A DNA stretch of 64,000 nucleotides from Sphingopyxis sp. USTB-05 (GTDB lineage: Bacteria > Pseudomonadota > Alphaproteobacteria > Sphingomonadales > Sphingomonadaceae): contig NZ_CP084712.1 in assembly GCF_023822045.1 (NCBI RefSeq), forward strand, positions 1,488,001-1,552,000. The letters are read 5' to 3'. The notes under the pieces are model-generated. The model searched no databases. It worked only from the letters and a program-made list of their open reading frames with translations, and was not told the origin of the DNA. The position numbers and the translations under genes were made by a program. Position 1 is the stretch's first letter. Every line of letters starts with the position of its first letter. Shown here piece by piece: positions 35,761 to 48,403 of the stretch.

Positions 35761-35775
35761 TGGCGGAGCGGGAGG
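35761..35775 (-). other. Left attachment-site-like direct repeat
   Basis: TGGCGGAGCGGGAGG, identical to 46,607-46,621 and in the same orientation. On the minus strand it reads CCTCCCGCTCCGCCA, the acceptor end of a tRNA with CCA. It sits exactly where the sequence turns AT-rich. Confidence 0.6.
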
Positions 35776-35820
35776 TATTTAGAATATAATTGTATGTATT
35801 TGATATACTTTTCTAAATAC
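35775..35820. repeat. AT-rich inverted repeat at the left island end
   Basis: Perfect 10-base arms GTATTTAGAA (35,775-35,784) and TTCTAAATAC (35,811-35,820) separated by 26 AT-rich bases. It touches the left direct repeat. It could be a hairpin, a terminator or an integrase/excisionase binding site. Confidence 0.6.
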
Positions 35821-36095: not shown

Positions 36096-38315
36096 ATGAT
36101 GGCGGATATGGCCGCCGACAAGACTGTTCCACCCGACGATATTAGCGAAGCCGCGATGGTGGCCGCCATACCCGGCTTTGGCCTTTCAAAACTGGCGGAA
36201 TATGCCCAACGCCTTGGACAAGATCCCGACCCTCGCAGCACGCTTCGGGAAACGCAGCAAGCGTTGCTCCGTTTTCTTGCGGTTCGCGAGCCCGCCGCTT
36301 TCCTAGCGCGCACCGGCCTTTATGTAATTGAGCAGAGCTCGCGGACTTCCACGGATATAATCTTTGAACAATCCGAGGCTGAACTCCTCCAAGGCCTCGC
36401 TCTCACCGTGGCGAACGCGCCCCCAGTACCAACTGCTCCCAACTCTTTGGTTCGCGGCTGGGACTTGGCGCAGCGCAATCTGCGCGCCTTCGCCAATGTT
36501 ACTGGCGAGACTATTGATCCGAACGATCCGATTACGCGCATCGTTGCCCAAGCAAGAGTTCAGACGCTCTACTATCGAAACTTCTTCAGCAGCGACGACG
36601 CCAAGGACATTTTGCCAACCCTGCTGCAGCCGCTTGATCGCCTGTCATTGGAACGTCTCGGCTATCTTCTTTCAGACCTCGCAGCGGCGTTGTTCGATCT
36701 CTTAGAGAAAATCGGGAGTCGTATCAGTGATTTCGATGCGGCTACGGAATTTTGGCACGGACGCGTCGACGAGGCCAAGCTTTCGGCGGTTCTGGAGGCG
36801 GTCCCGATGCTCAAGCGGGCTTGGCGCTTTTCGGAAGGACGTCCGACAGCCTCGCGAAGCCAATGCGCGTTCCAGCTTAGCGAAATGGCGTGGGCGCCGA
36901 TTTTTACTTTCTCCCAGAGCGAGCTTCGGCAGTGGTACGGCGACCCAATCGCTGAGGCGCTGACGCGCTTGTCGCTTCGGTTCGGTGACCTCGCGGAGTT
37001 TGATCTCGAAAAGCTGTACCTCGATAGTCCGGTCCGTGAACAACCATTTGTCCGGCTCGATAATGACGCGCTGTTCCTTCCCATACCCGGTCTGCTTGTC
37101 AGCTTTCCCTTTCTGATTATCGAACGCCTCATTCGTGGTGATGCGGCACTCGAAGCTTCATATTCCGCCGCGCGCGCCCGATATCTAGAGGATGCAGCTG
37201 AAAAGATTTTTCGAACCGCACTCCCATCAGCCAAAATCTACCATCCTGTGCGATGGAAGGATCCAGATACCGGCGCTGTGTTCGAAAACGATCTCTTCGT
37301 CATGCTCGGCAACCACATATTTCTGATCGAATCGAAGTCCGGAAAGGTCAAAGCAGCTTCGCGTCGCGGCGGCCCGGACAGCTTGCGAAAGAACTTTAAG
37401 CAGCTCTACGTGGAGCCCGGTATTCAGGCCCGTCGGCTAGAGGCCCTCTTGCGCAAGGGCTCCGAGGCGGCGAACCTCTTGCGCGACGGAAAAGGACGGC
37501 CGTTAGATATTGATCTATCCCGCCCCGTGATCGTCCACAGCTTCGGTGTCTGTCTCGAACATTTTGCGGCAATTACGAGCAATCGGGAGCAGTTCGAAAC
37601 GCTCGGCCTGATTGAGCCCGACGAACCTTGGTCTCCGATCCTGTCTCTCGGCGAGCTGAGAATGATCGCCGCTCATCTCGATACAGAGGTTTCATTCTTT
37701 CATTATCTGACCCGTCGCGCGACCATAGAAGAACAAATCAGCTTCCATGGCGATGAGCAAGATTTGCTATCCATGTACCTTGTTAACGGCTTCCAGCTTG
37801 ATGCAGACGCGCTCGCTGGCCGACAGGTTAGATTTGGCATGGCTGACGCGCCAGTGCGGGGGCCCAAGGTGGCGCGGGAGGACCGAACCGAATTTGCGAC
37901 GCCGGGTGTTGAGCTGCCATCCTCGTGGCGGCGGGTCGCCGCCGAGCTTTACGCCAGCGATAATCGTAATCGTTTTGATATGCTCGAAACGATCATGAAC
38001 CAGCATCCCGGGGCACTCGCCGGTCTTGAGAAGCGAGCGCGAAGTTACCGTTCTGGTGCGCGAGGTGGTGCCGATGACTTAGCTGTGATGCGCTACAAGA
38101 TCGGCGATCGCACCTTTGTCCTCGCGCAACTTCTAAGTAGGAAGCAGTTCGAGTCAGAGATGGACTGGCATGAACATGCTCGCGAGATCGCTGGCGGGCT
38201 TCAAAGTCAATTCGGCGCGACCGAGTGCGTCGTCGTGCTGCGGGCTCGAAAGTCGCGAGCGGCATTTGACGCGATCAGCTTCTTTCGCATGGTGAGGCGG
38301 CGCCGGTTGCCATAA
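36096..38315 (+). CDS. Large uncharacterised protein with a PD-(D/E)XK-like nuclease motif
   Basis: A 739-residue soluble protein I cannot place in a named family. The N-terminal 350 residues look helical (IPGFGLSKLAEYAQRLGQD; LGYLLSDLAAALFDLLEKIG). In the middle, IYHPVRWKDPDTGAVFEND is followed by LFVMLGNHIFLIESKSGKVK, giving D399, E412 and K414. This D-(12)-E-x-K spacing with hydrophobic strands is the signature of the PD-(D/E)XK nuclease fold. The C-terminal third ends in a basic RRRRLP tail. Lower GC and codon use fit acquired DNA. As the first gene of the island it may be a defence or DNA-processing nuclease; this is inference. Confidence 0.7.
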   Translation: MMADMAADKTVPPDDISEAAMVAAIPGFGLSKLAEYAQRLGQDPDPRSTLRETQQALLRFLAVREPAAFLARTGLYVIEQSSRTSTDIIFEQSEAELLQGLALTVANAPPVPTAPNSLVRGWDLAQRNLRAFANVTGETIDPNDPITRIVAQARVQTLYYRNFFSSDDAKDILPTLLQPLDRLSLERLGYLLSDLAAALFDLLEKIGSRISDFDAATEFWHGRVDEAKLSAVLEAVPMLKRAWRFSEGRPTASRSQCAFQLSEMAWAPIFTFSQSELRQWYGDPIAEALTRLSLRFGDLAEFDLEKLYLDSPVREQPFVRLDNDALFLPIPGLLVSFPFLIIERLIRGDAALEASYSAARARYLEDAAEKIFRTALPSAKIYHPVRWKDPDTGAVFENDLFVMLGNHIFLIESKSGKVKAASRRGGPDSLRKNFKQLYVEPGIQARRLEALLRKGSEAANLLRDGKGRPLDIDLSRPVIVHSFGVCLEHFAAITSNREQFETLGLIEPDEPWSPILSLGELRMIAAHLDTEVSFFHYLTRRATIEEQISFHGDEQDLLSMYLVNGFQLDADALAGRQVRFGMADAPVRGPKVAREDRTEFATPGVELPSSWRRVAAELYASDNRNRFDMLETIMNQHPGALAGLEKRARSYRSGARGGADDLAVMRYKIGDRTFVLAQLLSRKQFESEMDWHEHAREIAGGLQSQFGATECVVVLRARKSRAAFDAISFFRMVRRRRLP

Positions 38316-38556: not shown

Positions 38557-38847
38557 TCAACGGCCTGCCAGTGCAAGTTGAGAGAGCGGAACGCACTTTT
38601 CTCTCGCTACAAACTGTGTGTGGAGCGCTTCTGATGGCAGCATATATAGTATGTGTAGTGGCAAGGATTCCCCAGCGGAACGGAGCTCACTTTTGACCTC
38701 GGACAAATGCAAGCCGCCGGGACCGATGATGAGAATGTCGATATCCGCCCCGACCCCTGCTACGGTCGAACCGAACATGTAGGCCTCAAAATGCTCTAAC
38801 GACGGGCAAGACGCCAGGAGGTGGATCGCAACCTCGTTAGCCGACAT
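38557..38847 (-). CDS. Minimal nucleotidyltransferase (MNT-like), third gene of the HNH operon
   Basis: A 96-residue protein from the ATG at 38,847, whose A is shared with the TAA of the upstream gene (TAATG). It carries the polymerase-beta-type motif FEAYMFGSTVAGVGADIDIL: Gly26-Ser27, then D35-x-D37. The third acidic residue expected on a later strand is not obvious (LPLHILYM has His there), so activity may be altered. Size fits minimal nucleotidyltransferases that act as antitoxins or AMPylators beside HEPN partners; no HEPN protein is in this operon. A longer start at 38,883 is possible. Confidence 0.75.
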   Translation of the reverse strand: MSANEVAIHLLASCPSLEHFEAYMFGSTVAGVGADIDILIIGPGGLHLSEVKSELRSAGESLPLHILYMLPSEALHTQFVAREKCVPLSQLALAGR

Positions 38848-39485
38848 TATTCCCGCGCCAGTCGCTCTCTCAATTCGTTCCATAGCATCACCTCGCACCC
38901 CAACTCTCTTCCGGCTTCGTTCGCTTCGGGCTGCGGCGTGCCATTCGGATTGATGTTCCAGATGATGTCGACCGGTCCAAAACGATCCCACAACGTCCGA
39001 ACCTGATCAGCGGTCGGCTCGTAATCGGCTATCATCCCAATACGCAGTTCCTCGCCGTTCCTTAGCGTAACCCGGTGAATTCGGTCGAACTCCCGATCGA
39101 CGGTCACGACAGGGCCATATTGCCGAAGAAGCCGATCCGAGAATTTGTAGACCTTGTGCTGAGCGGAGTTGGCGTTGCCGTCGAGCACCGCCGAACCCAA
39201 TGTGCCGAAACTGCCCCAGCCTACCCGGTTCTCCTCGAGAAACCGTATCGCCTCGCCCTCCCACACACACTCCGCGCGGTAACCGCACAAGAAATCGAGT
39301 CCCTCGACGCTGTTCCGGTAGTCGACCGCAGTGGCCTCATCGACATTTGCGGCGGCCGTAATGGCCGCGACGACGTCGGGCCGATCCTCGGTTACGATCC
39401 GGATTACTTCACCGCCAAGATGCTCCGCCCGCGATCGACCTTCTTTCGCAAAATTGGCGAGCGCATATTTGACCTGCCAGTTCAT
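38847..39485 (-). CDS. Unrecognised protein, middle gene of the HNH-nucleotidyltransferase operon
   Basis: A 212-residue protein starting MNWQVKYALANFAKEGRSRA, with GAAGGAG upstream; its ATG overlaps the HNH stop (ATGA at 39,485-39,482) and its own stop overlaps the next start. No family is recognised. The N-terminal half appears helical (ITAAANVDEATAVDYRNSVEGLDFLCGY). The C-terminal half alternates strands and helices: YGPVVTVDREFDRIHRVTLRNG, then FGPVDIIWNINPNGTPQP and ELGCEVMLWNELRERL. No membrane segment or signal. Coupling at both ends argues that it works with its neighbours. Confidence 0.75.
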   Translation of the reverse strand: MNWQVKYALANFAKEGRSRAEHLGGEVIRIVTEDRPDVVAAITAAANVDEATAVDYRNSVEGLDFLCGYRAECVWEGEAIRFLEENRVGWGSFGTLGSAVLDGNANSAQHKVYKFSDRLLRQYGPVVTVDREFDRIHRVTLRNGEELRIGMIADYEPTADQVRTLWDRFGPVDIIWNINPNGTPQPEANEAGRELGCEVMLWNELRERLARE

Positions 39486-40174
39486 GCGAACATCTCCTTC
39501 ATCGACGCCGGAAAGCGGATGGCGCGACCGGAGACGCCGCATATGTGCCTCTCAGACAAGCCACGAACATGCTCCTGATACTCAGCGAAGGTGCGACGTT
39601 CCTCCTCCGTGGCAAGGCCGAGATTGGCCTCAATGATTGCCAAGGTGCGATAGTGGTTGGGCAGGATCACGCTTCTCATCCGCTCGTCCCACGCAGGAGC
39701 GGTGGCCGATTCCGGGTCATACTCAAAGTCCGAACCTTCCTCCGGCGCGAACTTCTCCCAAATGGCCCGGTTCTCGGCCATAATGCCGGCAACCGCAGCT
39801 CGCGCATGCTCGCGATCGTCGTAAGCCCGGATGCCTTGTTTGTGTGCCAGCCGCGCGAGATGATTGGCCTTCCAATCAAGGAGGACATTCCGCGGATAAG
39901 CCTCGGGATCCTTATCAATCTTCGTATGGCAGGTCGGACACAGCAGGATGAGGTTTTCGAAGGCATCGGGATCGAAGTCGTCCGCCGGTCGGTCGCCATG
40001 GCGCGGGCCTGCATCGCCATGCGGAATAACGTGCGCCATTTCGGCGATGTGCTTATCACCACCCATTTCCGCCGGAAACAGGGCTTCCAAGCAGTCGGGT
40101 TTCTGGCAGAAGCCCGCCGCATCCGAGAATAGGTGCAGTCGAGTTGCCGCCGGTATCGCCTTTCTTTCCGCCAT
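39482..40174 (-). CDS. HNH endonuclease, first gene of a three-gene operon
   Basis: A 230-residue protein. The N-terminal HNH zinc-finger nuclease is complete: C23/C28 (FCQKPDC), the AHVIPH motif with H48, N74 in FENLILLCPTCHTKID with C79, C82 and H83. The GPRHGDRP and DWKANHLARL stretches resemble the HNH subtype found in defence effectors such as Cap5. The C-terminal 110 residues are helical (HARAAVAGIMAENRAIWEKFAP) and are too short for a SAVED domain. It is followed with 4-base overlap by the unknown gene. A role as DNA-cutting effector is inferred. Confidence 0.85.
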   Translation of the reverse strand: MAERKAIPAATRLHLFSDAAGFCQKPDCLEALFPAEMGGDKHIAEMAHVIPHGDAGPRHGDRPADDFDPDAFENLILLCPTCHTKIDKDPEAYPRNVLLDWKANHLARLAHKQGIRAYDDREHARAAVAGIMAENRAIWEKFAPEEGSDFEYDPESATAPAWDERMRSVILPNHYRTLAIIEANLGLATEEERRTFAEYQEHVRGLSERHICGVSGRAIRFPASMKEMFA

Positions 40175-40376: not shown

Positions 40377-40724
40377 CTAATCCCGCTCGAAGAGGGGAAT
40401 AGAGGAGTATTCGTTGGCCGCGCGCTCGCTGCGAGATTGCGGCCCAGACTTTGGGACTCTGCGCTGATCGCTGCGGGGTCGGATCGGCGTCGCCGTCCGG
40501 CTGGTAGAAGTTCCGCGCTGCCGCTCAATCAAGTTGCGAAGGCTTTCCGTCAAGACCAAGGTCGCGGTGCCCATCTTCACGATCTCGACATCGCCTCTCG
40601 CAATGAGCAGATAGAGTGAACTGCGACTTAGGCCCGTAAACCGACATGCGTCGGGTACCCGCATGCTGATGGGCTCGATTGCAAGTGGTGACGATGGTGA
40701 TGGGGCAGGGGACTGGAAAGGCAT
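40377..40724 (-). CDS. Excisionase/AlpA-like helix-turn-helix protein
   Basis: A 115-residue protein. Residues 17-70 form a MerR/excisionase-type DNA-binding unit: SMRVPDACRFTGLSRSSLYLL, then ARGDVEIVKMGTATLVLTESL. The tail is basic and rich in Ser/Arg (TSRTATPIRPRSDQRR), probably disordered. Small proteins of this type direct excision or regulate integrase genes in P4-like islands. It stands alone, about 200 bases upstream of the divergently regulated HNH operon region, on the same strand as the integrase. Confidence 0.8.
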   Translation of the reverse strand: MPFQSPAPSPSSPLAIEPISMRVPDACRFTGLSRSSLYLLIARGDVEIVKMGTATLVLTESLRNLIERQRGTSTSRTATPIRPRSDQRRVPKSGPQSRSERAANEYSSIPLFERD

Positions 40725-42627: not shown

Positions 42628-43500
42628 ATGCTCCGACTGCTAAACCGCCATGAAGAGGTCGTCTTCGATCACATTTCCGAAGTCGGGAATAGGTACGGGC
42701 TTTCGGTTTACCCGAAGGTACGGGTTGCCGATGTGATAAATCTCGATGCCGTGGGCATCGACTTTTCACATAAATCATTCGGATTGCGGGCGCATTTCGA
42801 TTTCACCATTTCGCGTGGATACGACCCGCTTTATGCCGTTGAATTTGACGGACCAAGTCACCTTACGGATGTGCAGCGTGAGCGCGATGGAAAAAAGGAC
42901 AGGCTTTGCCAACTGAGCGGCCTGCCGATCCTTCGAGTGAACAGCCGCCACATAACCCAAGATTTCGGCGAGCTGACATTACTCGCATGGATCATGGAAA
43001 CCTACGAGATGCAGTGTGGCTTTTACGAAGCGCAGGAGCGCGGGCAAATACCTTTTGATGAACCATTTGATCCATTCAATTTGATGACGATGCAGGACGG
43101 CAAATTCGTTCATCCGCTTTTTCTCAGCGAGAGCCATCGTCGGCAGATGCGGCTGCTAAAAGAGAGCGGCCGACTGCAAGATTTTGCTTCGTCCGGCATA
43201 ATTGCGGATAGTATCGACGGCACCATGCGCGGGCTCGAATTCATCCGCGTCAGCCCAACACATGGCCTTCGCGTAGAAACGGCGATGCGAGCGCAACAGT
43301 TTCCAATTCTGTTTAGTGACCTTCTCGGCGAAATTTTGGTGATCCAATTGATGGAGCGAATCGCTGCATACCTTGCCGGCGAGATATCCGCCGAGCCGCT
43401 CGTTACTATCGATCAGCGGATTAAACATATCCAAGCGAAATGCAGGATGCGATGCAGTCATTCGGTCAGCAGCCTAGCTCGTGAACAGGCGGCGACTTAG
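42628..43500 (+). CDS. DUF2726-like protein with a nuclease-type core
   Basis: A 290-residue soluble protein. The region 23-115 follows the DUF2726 pattern: GLSVYPKVRVADVINL, then RAHFDFTISRGYDPLYAVEFDG with PSH, and DRLCQLSGLPILRVNSR. D58, E72 and D74 are placed like the acidic residues of restriction-endonuclease folds, and H78 follows. The C-terminal 180 residues are unassigned. It is followed by an 86-residue gene 21 bases downstream. Together they look like a two-gene unit; a DNA-cleaving or DNA-binding role is inferred from the fold only. Confidence 0.75.
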   Translation: MLRLLNRHEEVVFDHISEVGNRYGLSVYPKVRVADVINLDAVGIDFSHKSFGLRAHFDFTISRGYDPLYAVEFDGPSHLTDVQRERDGKKDRLCQLSGLPILRVNSRHITQDFGELTLLAWIMETYEMQCGFYEAQERGQIPFDEPFDPFNLMTMQDGKFVHPLFLSESHRRQMRLLKESGRLQDFASSGIIADSIDGTMRGLEFIRVSPTHGLRVETAMRAQQFPILFSDLLGEILVIQLMERIAAYLAGEISAEPLVTIDQRIKHIQAKCRMRCSHSVSSLAREQAAT

Positions 43501-45067: not shown

Positions 45068-45316
45068 TTATCGCCTCCAGAATTGCCACCACCTGCGGTT
45101 CTTTCTCTCGACCGACTGGGCGATGATCCGCAAACTGCGGATCAGCGCCTCCTCGACCTCGGCTACGCTGACGCCATGGCGCTCGGCGAGCTGGCGATAG
45201 CTTAGCTCCTCGACCCGGTGCCCGAGAAAGATCGCGCGGTCGACCTCGTCGATGCGATCGACTGCGCGTTCATATTGGCGGAGCAGGTATCGCCGCGCGC
45301 GGGTGTAGCGGCTCAT
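45068..45316 (-). CDS. Small sigma-70 region 4-like helix-turn-helix protein
   Basis: An 82-residue protein whose ATG (45,316) overlaps the integrase stop (ATGA) and has GGAGG upstream. The sequence resembles region 4 of sigma factors: VDRIDEVDRAIFLGHRVEEL, then SYRQLAERHGVSVAEVEEALIRSL. It lacks region 2, so it is not a complete sigma factor. Position argues for a regulator made together with the integrase. Confidence 0.8.
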   Translation of the reverse strand: MSRYTRARRYLLRQYERAVDRIDEVDRAIFLGHRVEELSYRQLAERHGVSVAEVEEALIRSLRIIAQSVERKNRRWWQFWRR

Positions 45317-46356
45317 CGCCTCCTCCCGTCGCAATAGTTTGCCCAATCCTCCATCATGAGACGGCGCTTTTCGAGGAGATTGCCCCGCCGGTAGGCCGCC
45401 TCAACCTTGTTGGCGACGGTATGGGCGAGGGCGGCTTCGGCAACATCGCTCGGGTGGTTCGTTTCCTCGCTCACCCAATCGCGGAACGATGAGCGGAACC
45501 CATGCGCCGTGTATGGCTCGCCCATTTCCTTGAGCAGCTTGGTCAGCGTCTGATCCGACAGCGGGCGATTGCGCCGCATGCCGGGAAAGACAAGGTCGCA
45601 TCCCTTGATCCGCAACCGCGCGCACCGCTCGACGATGCGCAGCGGGCGGCGGGTGAGGGGAACCACATGCTCCCGATATGCCTTCATGCGGTCCTTGGAG
45701 AGCTTCCACAGGCCCTTTTCGAGGTCGAACTCTCCCCATGTGGCGCCGCGAACCTCGCCCGACCGTGCCGCCGTGAAAATGGCAAATTCGAGGGCGAGGC
45801 GGCTGAACGAGTCCCGCTCCCGGAGGCGCTGCACGAAGGCGGGCACATCCTCATATGGCATCGCTGCGAAATGATTGTCCCGGCGTGGCTGGCGGGGCAG
45901 ACCCTTCGTGATTGCCCGCATTGGCGCGTCTGTTTCGCGGTAGCCAGACGCATAGGCCCAATCCAGCACGGCACCGACGCGCTGCCGGACGCGGCGCGCC
46001 GTCTCGGGCTTGGCTAGCCATATTTCCGCAAGCAGGTCGCGGATCATAGGACCGTTGATCTGATCGACCTTGAATTTGCCGATATGCGGAAACGCGTAGA
46101 GTTCGAGTGTCCGCGTCCACTGCGCGTGATGCTTACCGTTGCGCCATGTCTTCGAATGGATTTCGTAGGTCTTGGCGGCGGCTTCGATGAAGGTCGGCAC
46201 GGCCTGCCGCTTGCGCCGCTCGAAATGCGGGTCGATGCCGATCTCGACCTGCTCGCGGATTTCCTGCGCCAGCTCGCGCGCCTGCGCCAGACTGACTTTC
46301 TGGCAACTGCCAAGACCGAAGTCCCGGCGTACACCGTCCTTCTGGACCCGGCACAC
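45313..46356 (-). CDS. P4-type tyrosine integrase; N-terminus uncertain
   Basis: At least 347 residues from a GTG at 46,356. The catalytic set is complete: R198 (FTAARSGEVRG), H285-x-x-R288 (AHGFRSSF), H312 and nucleophile Y322. The central SAM-like domain includes YAFPHIGKFKVDQINGPMIR. The same frame stays open further upstream and encodes family-like sequence (VSLGDGLVRLDRPGGTSSW), but no start codon is found there; a shift at the run of six C at 46,461-46,466 would join it to an ATG at 46,475. The N-terminal DUF4102-like part may therefore be frameshifted, or use a non-standard start. Confidence 0.88.
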   Translation of the reverse strand: MCRVQKDGVRRDFGLGSCQKVSLAQARELAQEIREQVEIGIDPHFERRKRQAVPTFIEAAAKTYEIHSKTWRNGKHHAQWTRTLELYAFPHIGKFKVDQINGPMIRDLLAEIWLAKPETARRVRQRVGAVLDWAYASGYRETDAPMRAITKGLPRQPRRDNHFAAMPYEDVPAFVQRLRERDSFSRLALEFAIFTAARSGEVRGATWGEFDLEKGLWKLSKDRMKAYREHVVPLTRRPLRIVERCARLRIKGCDLVFPGMRRNRPLSDQTLTKLLKEMGEPYTAHGFRSSFRDWVSEETNHPSDVAEAALAHTVANKVEAAYRRGNLLEKRRLMMEDWANYCDGRRR

Positions 46357-46524: not shown

Positions 46525-46606
46525 GCACAGGGATGCGAAGCGCCCTTCAAACCCGCAGCTAAGCTGGGGTCTTGGGGACGGTTCGGGAGAGAGTGGGATT
46601 AGAACT

Positions 46607-46632
46607 TGGCGGAGCGGGAGGGATTCGAACTC
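46607..46632 (-). other. Right attachment-like repeat: tRNA 3'-end fragment
   Basis: On the minus strand this reads TTCGAATCCCTCC followed by CGCTCCGCCA: the T-loop, 3' T-stem strand, acceptor strand and CCA of a tRNA (Ser-like). The preceding bases (CTGAG) do not pair with CCCTC, and no D or anticodon arm follows, so it is only a fragment. Its last 15 bases equal 35,761-35,775. Confidence 0.7.
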
Positions 46633-46795
46633 AGGCCGTAAGTGGCTGAAATCCTTGTCCTCGCGGCTGCGCTTTCGCGTAAAATACCATGGAATATACC
46701 ACGGCAGGTCGCTCGAAAATTCTCGCCTGAAATCAGAGGCTTGTCGCTTCAGTTCGACGGAGGCCCTCTCTATCGAACCCTCTATACATTGGCAA

Positions 46796-46816: not shown

Positions 46817-46885
46817 TCTGCGATGCAGGCGGAATCGAGGCGGTCACCGGGCCTAAACTCGCCAGCCGAATATCGGTCCGACAGC

Positions 46886-48376
46886 TTATTTTTGCCGTAT
46901 GACCAGCTCCTTTCCGGCGTAGCGGGCCGGGCTGATGCGCTCGACGCGCTGCGTGCGGCGTCCCGCCTTGTCCATGAAGCTGACCTCGACGGTTACCGGC
47001 TCCATCGATGCAAGGCCGAAGTGGAGCGGCTGCGTGCCTTGCGAATTATAGCCTTCGCCGGTCGAGACCTGGCGCGTCGCGAGGATCTTTCCGGAAGCGT
47101 CGTAGAGGCGGACCTCGGCGCCCATGCGGGTGAAGTGTCCGGCCTTGTCGAGCACGCGTACCGAGAGGCTGCGGCGCGCAGCCGCCTTGCCGAGATCGTT
47201 GTGGAACAGGAAATGGCCGCCGGTGTCGGTATATCCGCGCGTCACCGAGAGATCGAGCGCACCATCGCGATCATAGTCGATCCACTGGACTCCATGATCG
47301 GCGACGTCGAGCGCCGAACCGGCGGGCAGGATATTCTCGAATCCTTTGCCGCCGAGGTTGCGGTAGAGCCGGTTCGCGGGCTGCTGCGCACCCGACTTGC
47401 CGGTGTAGGCGGCAACGAAGAGGTCGAGCCAGCCGTCATTGTCGAAATCGCCCCAAGCGGCTCCGACCGCGTGATTGTCCTCGGCGAGGCCGAGCGCCGG
47501 GGCGACATTCTCGAAGCTGCCGTCGCCCTTGTTTCGGTAGAGGATGTTGACCCCGTAGCTCGCGACGAACAGGTCGAGGTGGCCGTCATTGTCATAGTCG
47601 CCGACCGCGCAGCCAACGCTGCCTTCGGTGCGTGGGCGGCCCGGGCGGTCCATGCCGAGCGCGGGAGCAACGTCGGTGAAGCGGTCGCCGTCGTTCCGCC
47701 ACAGCGCGTCGTTGGCGCCCGACTGGTTGGCAAGGAAGAGATCGAGGTCGCCGTCGCGGTCGTAATCGAACCAGCAGGCGCCGACGGTCGGCCTTGGATC
47801 GTCTCCCGCCTGGTCCGCGGGGACGCGCACGAAGCGGCCTGCGTCCTGGCGATAGAGGGCGTTGGGCCCCGAACGGTTCGCGGCGAAAAGATCGAGGTCG
47901 CCGTCATTGTCGAAATCGACCCAGCTCGACTGGCGCGCCGAGCGTCCGGCGGCAACGGGATCGGCGGTTTGTGCGACGAAGCGGCGGCCGCGATCGTTGC
48001 GGAAGAGAAGGTTCGCGGCATCCTCTTCGGTGGCACCCGCGTAGAGATCGGGCCAACCGTCGCCATTATAATCGCCCCAGGCGAGGCCGCGTATCTCCGC
48101 ACCCGAGACGGGAAGGCCCATCATGGCGCCGATGCTGGTGAATCGGCCCTTGTCGTTGCGATAGAGGCGAATCTCGCCGCTCTCGAGCGAGACGGCGAGA
48201 TCGAGGTCGCCGTCGCGATCGAAGTCGGCCCAACTGTTCGACAGCGACCCGGGCAGGCTGAAGTCGGCGGTCTGGACGGGCGTAAAGGCCGGGCCGGTCG
48301 CCCCGGCCGCCCCGCCGCCGGCAATACCGGTCGACAGGACGGCCCAGGACAGGATCCGCATCAGTTCATCGCGCAT
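46886..48376 (-). CDS. CRTAC1-like FG-GAP/VCBS protein with ASPIC/UnbV domain
   Basis: A 496-residue exported protein (hydrophobic N-terminus MRDELMRILSWAVLSTGIAG). Seven or so FG-GAP/VCBS repeats carry calcium-type loops such as FDRDGDLDLAV, YNGDGWPDLYAG, FDNDGDLDLFAAN and YDNDGHLDLFVAS, making a beta-propeller. The C-terminal ASPIC/UnbV domain has GHFTRMGAEVRLYDASGKIL and GEGYNSQGTQPLHFGL. In sphingomonads and Bacteroidetes such proteins accompany TonB receptors. It lies 27 bases after the TonB receptor gene and is probably the last gene of the sigma-metC-TonB operon. Confidence 0.9.
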   Translation of the reverse strand: MRDELMRILSWAVLSTGIAGGGAAGATGPAFTPVQTADFSLPGSLSNSWADFDRDGDLDLAVSLESGEIRLYRNDKGRFTSIGAMMGLPVSGAEIRGLAWGDYNGDGWPDLYAGATEEDAANLLFRNDRGRRFVAQTADPVAAGRSARQSSWVDFDNDGDLDLFAANRSGPNALYRQDAGRFVRVPADQAGDDPRPTVGACWFDYDRDGDLDLFLANQSGANDALWRNDGDRFTDVAPALGMDRPGRPRTEGSVGCAVGDYDNDGHLDLFVASYGVNILYRNKGDGSFENVAPALGLAEDNHAVGAAWGDFDNDGWLDLFVAAYTGKSGAQQPANRLYRNLGGKGFENILPAGSALDVADHGVQWIDYDRDGALDLSVTRGYTDTGGHFLFHNDLGKAAARRSLSVRVLDKAGHFTRMGAEVRLYDASGKILATRQVSTGEGYNSQGTQPLHFGLASMEPVTVEVSFMDKAGRRTQRVERISPARYAGKELVIRQK

Positions 48377-48403
48377 GATACGGACTCCAGTGGATGGTCT
48401 TGA

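Follow-up and report, generated by a model that had tools for sequence, protein, structure and literature searches.

An HNH nuclease gene, a gene of an undescribed family and a minimal nucleotidyltransferase gene form a conserved overlapping module in Sphingopyxis sp. USTB-05 and other bacteria

Three overlapping genes on the minus strand of the Sphingopyxis sp. USTB-05 genome form a real conserved module, beyond what chance would produce: their order is kept in every one of 33 genome loci, and all three show a low ratio of nonsynonymous to synonymous substitution rates (dN/dS). The genes lie in the 64,000-nucleotide stretch of contig NZ_CP084712.1 that we analysed (positions 1,488,001 to 1,552,000, hereafter the window), to which all coordinates below refer. 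They encode, in this order, an HNH endonuclease, a middle protein that belongs to no described family, and a minimal nucleotidyltransferase (NTase). At the level of sequence, the three genes are shown to overlap, to be conserved and to be inherited together as one unit, and this in three diverged lineages, which we call types 1 (that of the window), 2 and 3. We see about an even chance that it is a three-component nuclease module, most likely one that acts against phages, by abortive infection, or against plasmids.

39482..40174, minus strand: HNH endonuclease gene, 230 amino acids
38847..39485, minus strand: middle gene, 212 amino acids
38557..38847, minus strand: minimal NTase gene, 96 amino acids
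39482..39485, minus strand: stop/start overlap of the HNH and middle genes, 4 nucleotides, ATGA (NTGA in relatives)

The positions, sizes and overlaps of 4 bases and 1 base agree with those claimed in an earlier note on this DNA, with a caveat for the start of the NTase. The middle and NTase genes share a single nucleotide (TAATG) with the start given above; an alternative in-frame ATG 36 nucleotides upstream (38883) would extend the overlap to 37 nucleotides and the protein to as many as 108 amino acids, so that this start is uncertain. A start codon giving the 37-nucleotide overlap is present in 27 of 33 relatives, and an ATG with the 1-nucleotide overlap in 25 of the 33.

The scan of genome contigs for the middle gene produced 73 pattern matches, 33 of them loci; these belong to Alpha-, Beta- and Gammaproteobacteria, with a single metagenome-assembled genome (MAG) from Hydrogenedentota. 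At each locus an HNH homologue directly precedes the middle gene and an NTase homologue directly follows it, and the coordinates place a 4-nucleotide overlap between the HNH stop and the middle start in all 33. The letters of this overlap are ATGA in 21 cases, GTGA in 9 and TTGA in 3; one GTGA, that of locus L015, is void because it was read where the first HNH fragment ends, and the tally holds for 32. Between the window and four relatives, dN/dS ranges from 0.07 to 0.10 for the HNH gene, from 0.08 to 0.20 for the middle gene and from 0.07 to 0.18 for the NTase gene. Pairwise distances over 32 loci (the window, listed as L001, and 31 others; L010 and L015 were dropped for their incomplete HNH frames) correlate between the three proteins, with Spearman coefficients of 0.83 for HNH and middle, 0.81 for middle and NTase, and 0.79 for HNH and NTase, and none of 2000 permutations reached values as high. 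Any linked set of genes that moves together would give such a correlation; it shows that the unit is inherited whole.

Three of these loci call for comment. In L010 the HNH gene is cut at the contig start. In L015 (376-1673, from a MAG) the HNH gene is split over two frames and the middle frame has just 201 amino acids, which may reflect decay or an assembly error. The triad of L009 fills a whole 3130-base contig binned as Candidatus Hydrogenedentota, and its middle protein is 73% identical to that of the window, suggesting either recent transfer or a binning error.

Plasmids, E. coli genomes and viral contigs were covered as well. Nine plasmid records matched, one of them a type-2 Vibrio plasmid, and the triad was present in all five regions read (four of type 1, one of type 2). 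A DNA search of 5,426 E. coli genomes with the single query L027 found one positive genome, in which the triad is complete. Two loci came from viral contigs, and the triad of one of them (L046) is complete; the other, L047:6013-6488 from a viral-collection contig, is a broken copy in which only the NTase gene and the last part of the middle gene are left, with no HNH gene. Phage records gave no match to type-1 or type-3 middle proteins, and among viral contigs 18 pattern matches to the type-2 alignment were reduced to zero confirmed. The middle gene is accompanied by the same two partners in every locus read except the broken viral-contig copy. Occurrence is rare and patchy: the module turned up in one genome among 196 relatives and in three among 398 from the phylum (the Sphingopyxis genome itself included in both counts), and the type-2 profile found 2 of 297 and 1 of 369 genomes in two further samples, the single match of the latter being a type-1 copy.

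Type 2 is represented by a Vibrio alginolyticus plasmid, whose middle protein is 26% identical over residues 71-211, and by a second locus in genome G290; the HNH-middle-NTase order is kept in both type-2 loci read. A search with the HNH tail found 4 of 329 genomes (its own, G290, G380 and G421), where the G380 copy (L045), whose contig is as long as that of L022, is not counted as a separate locus and G421 opened type 3. The middle protein of G421 has only 136 amino acids, and searching with it recovered 3 of 197 genomes, namely G421 and two others at 19-20% identity (E about 1e-8). A plasmid search for type 3 returned four records, three of which were read, and the E. coli genomes searched with type-3 DNA included none positive. 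All six type-3 loci have an HNH gene, a middle gene for 128-138 amino acids and an open reading frame with the NTase motif, in the same order, the NTases of L060-L063 being recognised by reading of the GS..DxD motif rather than by profile. On the type-3 Acinetobacter plasmid (L061:5368-5580) the NTase frame ends after 70 amino acids, just before IS66 genes, while those of the HNH and middle genes remain open. The earlier note had proposed a neighbourhood search for the same three genes in order elsewhere; they were found together in 33 of 33 genome loci and in plasmid, E. coli, type-2 and type-3 loci.

The seven residues of the HNH protein that the earlier note had named as a complete HNH centre (C23, C28, H48, N74, C79, C82 and H83) are all invariant in an alignment of 30 sequences, and the Pfam HNH_2 match of the window protein stands above its cut-off (27.1 vs 21 bits). 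The proposed likeness to Cap5-type effectors of cyclic-oligonucleotide-based antiphage signalling systems (CBASS) holds at profile level, in that PADLOC ranks a CBASS endonuclease effector first (E 1.2e-22), the match spanning just residues 5-136. PDC-M68A follows close behind (E 2.9e-22), and it is the best PADLOC match of the Vibrio HNH protein (9.3e-32).

About 113 C-terminal amino acids of the HNH protein form a domain that is predicted to be helical; the predicted-structure model of the protein has a predicted local distance difference test score (pLDDT) of 64. Across 17 members these 113 residues gave scattered weak matches only (best E 0.003 for Pfam and 0.048 for PADLOC). No SAVED or other sensor model matched in the 17 members at profile level, apart from one chance-level DACNH match (E 0.066), so that the claimed lack of SAVED holds at that level. 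HEPN was sought as well: the three proteins and the 17 C-terminal domains gave no profile match and no RX4HXY motif, a level of search that a very diverged HEPN fold could escape. As a candidate HEPN motif in the tail we rejected R204-x5-H210, which is invariant in 30 type-1 sequences, but whose arginine is gone in both type-2 proteins and which does not follow RX4HXY.

The middle protein of the window has zero family matches in Pfam, PADLOC and NCBIfam, 34 members of its family gave only scattered weak matches against Pfam and PADLOC (best E 0.0073), and no sequence relative was found among PDB proteins. Two candidate relatives were taken as chance and rejected, eL20 at E about 1 and an orphan methyltransferase at E 0.0073 in 2 of the 34 members. 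The AlphaFold model is confident (pLDDT 92.7), and fold comparison, with VIA-align run on Foldseek's candidates, suggests that the protein looks like two tandem restriction-endonuclease-like domains of the PD-(D/E)XK fold, at about residues 1-106 and 107-212. The core alpha-beta3-alpha-beta fold is present in both halves of the model, and an internal duplication was detected. The type-3 middle protein is predicted to have a single such domain. In the middle-family alignments read, the catalytic (D/E)XK is unconserved in the third strands (residues 38-43 and 146-152); D134 is invariant in alignment A2. This profile and structure check, which the earlier note had suggested for the 212-residue protein, gives a predicted fold to a protein outside the families of these libraries; the note had known of no family that it matched.

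The family is large. One protein search found 491 clusters at E <= 1e-3, of which 120 were listed, and a type-2 query found 448 at E <= 0.01 (120 listed), two sets that may overlap; a profile search reached 820 clusters at E <= 0.01 among 8000 candidates scored (120 listed). The family thus counts hundreds of clusters, yet it is nameless in the libraries searched.

A restriction-endonuclease-like fold invites the idea of a restriction-type system with type IV-like logic, in which the tandem protein would read DNA and bring the HNH protein to modified or foreign DNA, the NTase licensing or regulating the cut. We think this unlikely. No model of a methyltransferase or of a modified-base reader gave a convincing match to the triad proteins, the orphan methyltransferase match mentioned above included, and the same fold-comparison rows also include TIP26 and RPB5. 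TIP26 (a TBP-interacting protein) and the jaw of RPB5 are PD-(D/E)XK-fold proteins that are not known to cut DNA. An NTase would moreover be unusual in a restriction system.

In sequence, the third protein is shown to have a GS..DxD core, that of minimal NTases of the polymerase-beta type. In the window the motif reads G26-S27-x7-D35-x-D37, the core that the earlier note had picked out, with H65 at the third acidic position; none of 35 NTase sequences departs from the GS pair or from either acid of DXD. The window protein falls below the Pfam NTP_transf_2 cut-off (19.4 vs 21 bits, E 0.0014), as do the type-3 NTases of L059 and L055 and the NTase of G290; the Vibrio homologue passes it (29.3 bits). 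The third metal-binding position, whose equivalence with D71 of MntA is assigned by motif and not by structure, is aspartate in 18 of 34 type-1 NTases (L016-L032, L034) and histidine in 16 (the window, L002-L015, L033). Type 2 has histidine in the Vibrio protein and aspartate in that of G290. Four pairs within the histidine lineage are under purifying selection (dN/dS 0.07-0.18), which argues that the swap is not simple decay. PDC-S09 was rejected as a specific tag for this NTase: its model matches 137 of 204 genomes and is thus a general minimal nucleotidyltransferase (MNT) model.

An NTase and an HNH effector that share one operon, together with the similarity of the HNH domain to CBASS HNH effectors, could also point to a miniature CBASS-like pathway, in which the small NTase would make a nucleotide signal sensed by the HNH C-terminal domain. 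At about 96-115 amino acids, however, the NTases lie below the size of the CD-NTases (cGAS/DncV-like nucleotidyltransferases), as the earlier note had objected, and the C-terminal domain shows, at profile level in 17 members, none of the sensor matches that such a pathway would call for. To our knowledge, a restriction-endonuclease-like third protein is not a part of CBASS. We regard this explanation as very improbable.

For a nuclease module directed against phages or plasmids, the following scheme may be proposed. The HNH protein would be the DNA-cutting effector, and its helical C-terminal domain would dock on the non-catalytic restriction-endonuclease-like protein, which may act as an adaptor and perhaps as a sensor of DNA or of a trigger. 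The small NTase would keep the complex silent, probably by nucleotidylating the HNH protein or the adaptor, by analogy with MntA, which according to PMC7641770 modifies HepT with three AMPs and blocks it. Where the third acid is missing, the NTase might instead stand guard by binding a nucleotide. Infection would upset the silent state and free the HNH nuclease. It is tempting to speculate further that the triad is an immune module of a new class. A minimal NTase would lock an HNH DNase by nucleotidylation through a duplicated pseudo-restriction-endonuclease adaptor; in one lineage, including the window, the exchange of the third aspartate for histidine would have turned the enzyme into a guard that binds nucleotide or into a transferase of another kind. 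The helical HNH tail would be the NTase target and possibly a highly diverged HEPN-like domain. We offer this fuller version tentatively, as a doubtful one.

The surroundings of the module bear on its purpose. Judging by its sequence features, it probably sits in a 10.8-kb island, bounded and marked as follows.

45313..46356, minus strand: phage-type integrase of the island
40377..40724, minus strand: helix-turn-helix, AlpA/excisionase-like gene upstream of the module, an island gene outside the module; both Pfam matches below cut-off
35761..35779, no strand: 19-bp direct repeat, left copy, a possible attachment site
46607..46625, no strand: right copy of the repeat, 18/19 identical

GC content is 57.6% inside the island and 63.5% outside. 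Short two-copy repeats such as this one can arise by chance. The right copy lies in a segment (46590-46640) that we take to resemble a tRNA 3' end; ARAGORN found no tRNA at 46590-46640, and a tRNA remnant is possible there. The integrase, the AlpA-like gene, the short direct repeat and the lower GC fit the earlier description of the module as island-borne.

An island and its plasmid counterparts would also suit an addiction module, with the HNH protein as toxin, the NTase as antitoxin and a chaperone role for the middle protein; the module would then persist for island stability and not for defence. The module does occur on plasmids and in an integrase-bearing island, and, according to PMC7641770 and PMC11586414, proteins of the MNT superfamily characterise the toxin-antitoxin pairs of type VII. 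Against this reading, the Acinetobacter copy pairs a truncated NTase with open HNH and middle frames, and one NTase clade has lost the third acid. A third obligatory gene is also unusual for toxin-antitoxin modules, and we find such a role quite unlikely.

Defence-looking neighbours were seen in six of the nine annotated regions read, a raw count and not a measure of enrichment. Shedu (Phaeobacter) and DRT3a/b (Novosphingobium) are recorded as defence; others we take to be defence-like by family, namely ABC-3C with phospholipase D (Polymorphobacter), a P-loop NTPase fold protein (Ensifer), DUF1837 (Rhizobium), NTase-HEPN (Novosphingobium), and an NTase with ThiF and two HNH genes (E. coli I4). 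In E. coli I4 the triad lies in the ypjA-yfj region with these two further HNH genes and the NTase and ThiF pair (L043:11989-25598), a dense candidate defence island. Within the window island, a 739-residue protein encoded beside the module (36096-38315, plus strand) has a weak NERD match below cut-off (E 0.00097) and may be a second defence gene, and a 290-residue protein (42628-43500, plus strand) has a DUF2726 domain (E 3.3e-11). Elsewhere in the window, a 66-nucleotide repeat occurs in four diverged copies (62-79% to the reference) at 47392-48234, inside the open frame 46823-48403.

Several observations weigh against a defensive, NTase-silenced nuclease. No link to a phage or trigger was found. 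The remaining three of the nine regions (Vibrio, Acinetobacter and Klebsiella) hold mobile-element genes and no named defence gene. The broken viral-contig copy lacks the HNH gene. The truncated Acinetobacter NTase beside an open HNH frame is hard to reconcile with silencing, since an active and toxic HNH protein would not permit the loss of a strict antitoxin. Histidine at the third position in 16 of the 34 type-1 NTases, that of the window included, makes transfer activity there doubtful, and the motif itself departs from that of MntA in the spacing given below.

The module lends itself to testing as a candidate defence system, and the catalytic residues to mutate are obvious. It offers a way to ask whether the control that minimal NTases have over RNases extends to DNases, and the exchange of histidine for aspartate is a natural experiment on the need for catalysis.

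Among known systems, none that we compared accounts for the triad. Titles and abstract starts among the matches listed from the open-licence PMC literature do not describe the three-gene set (preprints and other licences lay outside this scope), and the term PDC-M68 is absent from the open-licence PMC library. The passages considered from PMC13083879, PMC12409345, PMC8565338 and PMC12839542 deal with other proteins. PDC-M68, a PADLOC candidate, has an A protein with a similar HNH domain, but the model of its B protein spans 581 positions and found no counterpart in the window's genome; membership was rejected because this partner is missing (PDLC04774, the one M68B model tried, had no match there). 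For Shedu (SduA), the protein listed as P0003 aligns over residues 22-140 to positions 33-147 only of the 326 in the model of the DUF4263 nuclease domain. Cap5-type (HNH-SAVED) effectors of CBASS share the N-terminal HNH domain, but the module's HNH protein matches over about its first 140 residues only. CBASS membership was rejected because the only NTase is small, 96 amino acids (up to 108) with no CD-NTase model matched, and no SAVED match was found at profile level; the module has in addition a third gene of an undescribed family. For non-catalytic PD-(D/E)XK proteins such as TIP26 and the RPB5 jaw, no sequence relation was found to the middle protein, which differs in its predicted tandem duplication and in its tie to HNH and NTase genes. 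The HEPN-MNT pairs (type VII, MntA/HepT) likewise encode a small polymerase-beta-type NTase beside a presumed nuclease effector. Here, however, the presumed effector belongs to the HNH proteins, all complete loci read have a third protein, and the NTase of the window has the spacing GSX7DXD, the third acid being lost in one clade, against GSX10DXD and a third metal-binding aspartate, D71, in MntA (PMC7641770). The earlier view of a distinct module stands on the conserved triad and its undescribed middle family.
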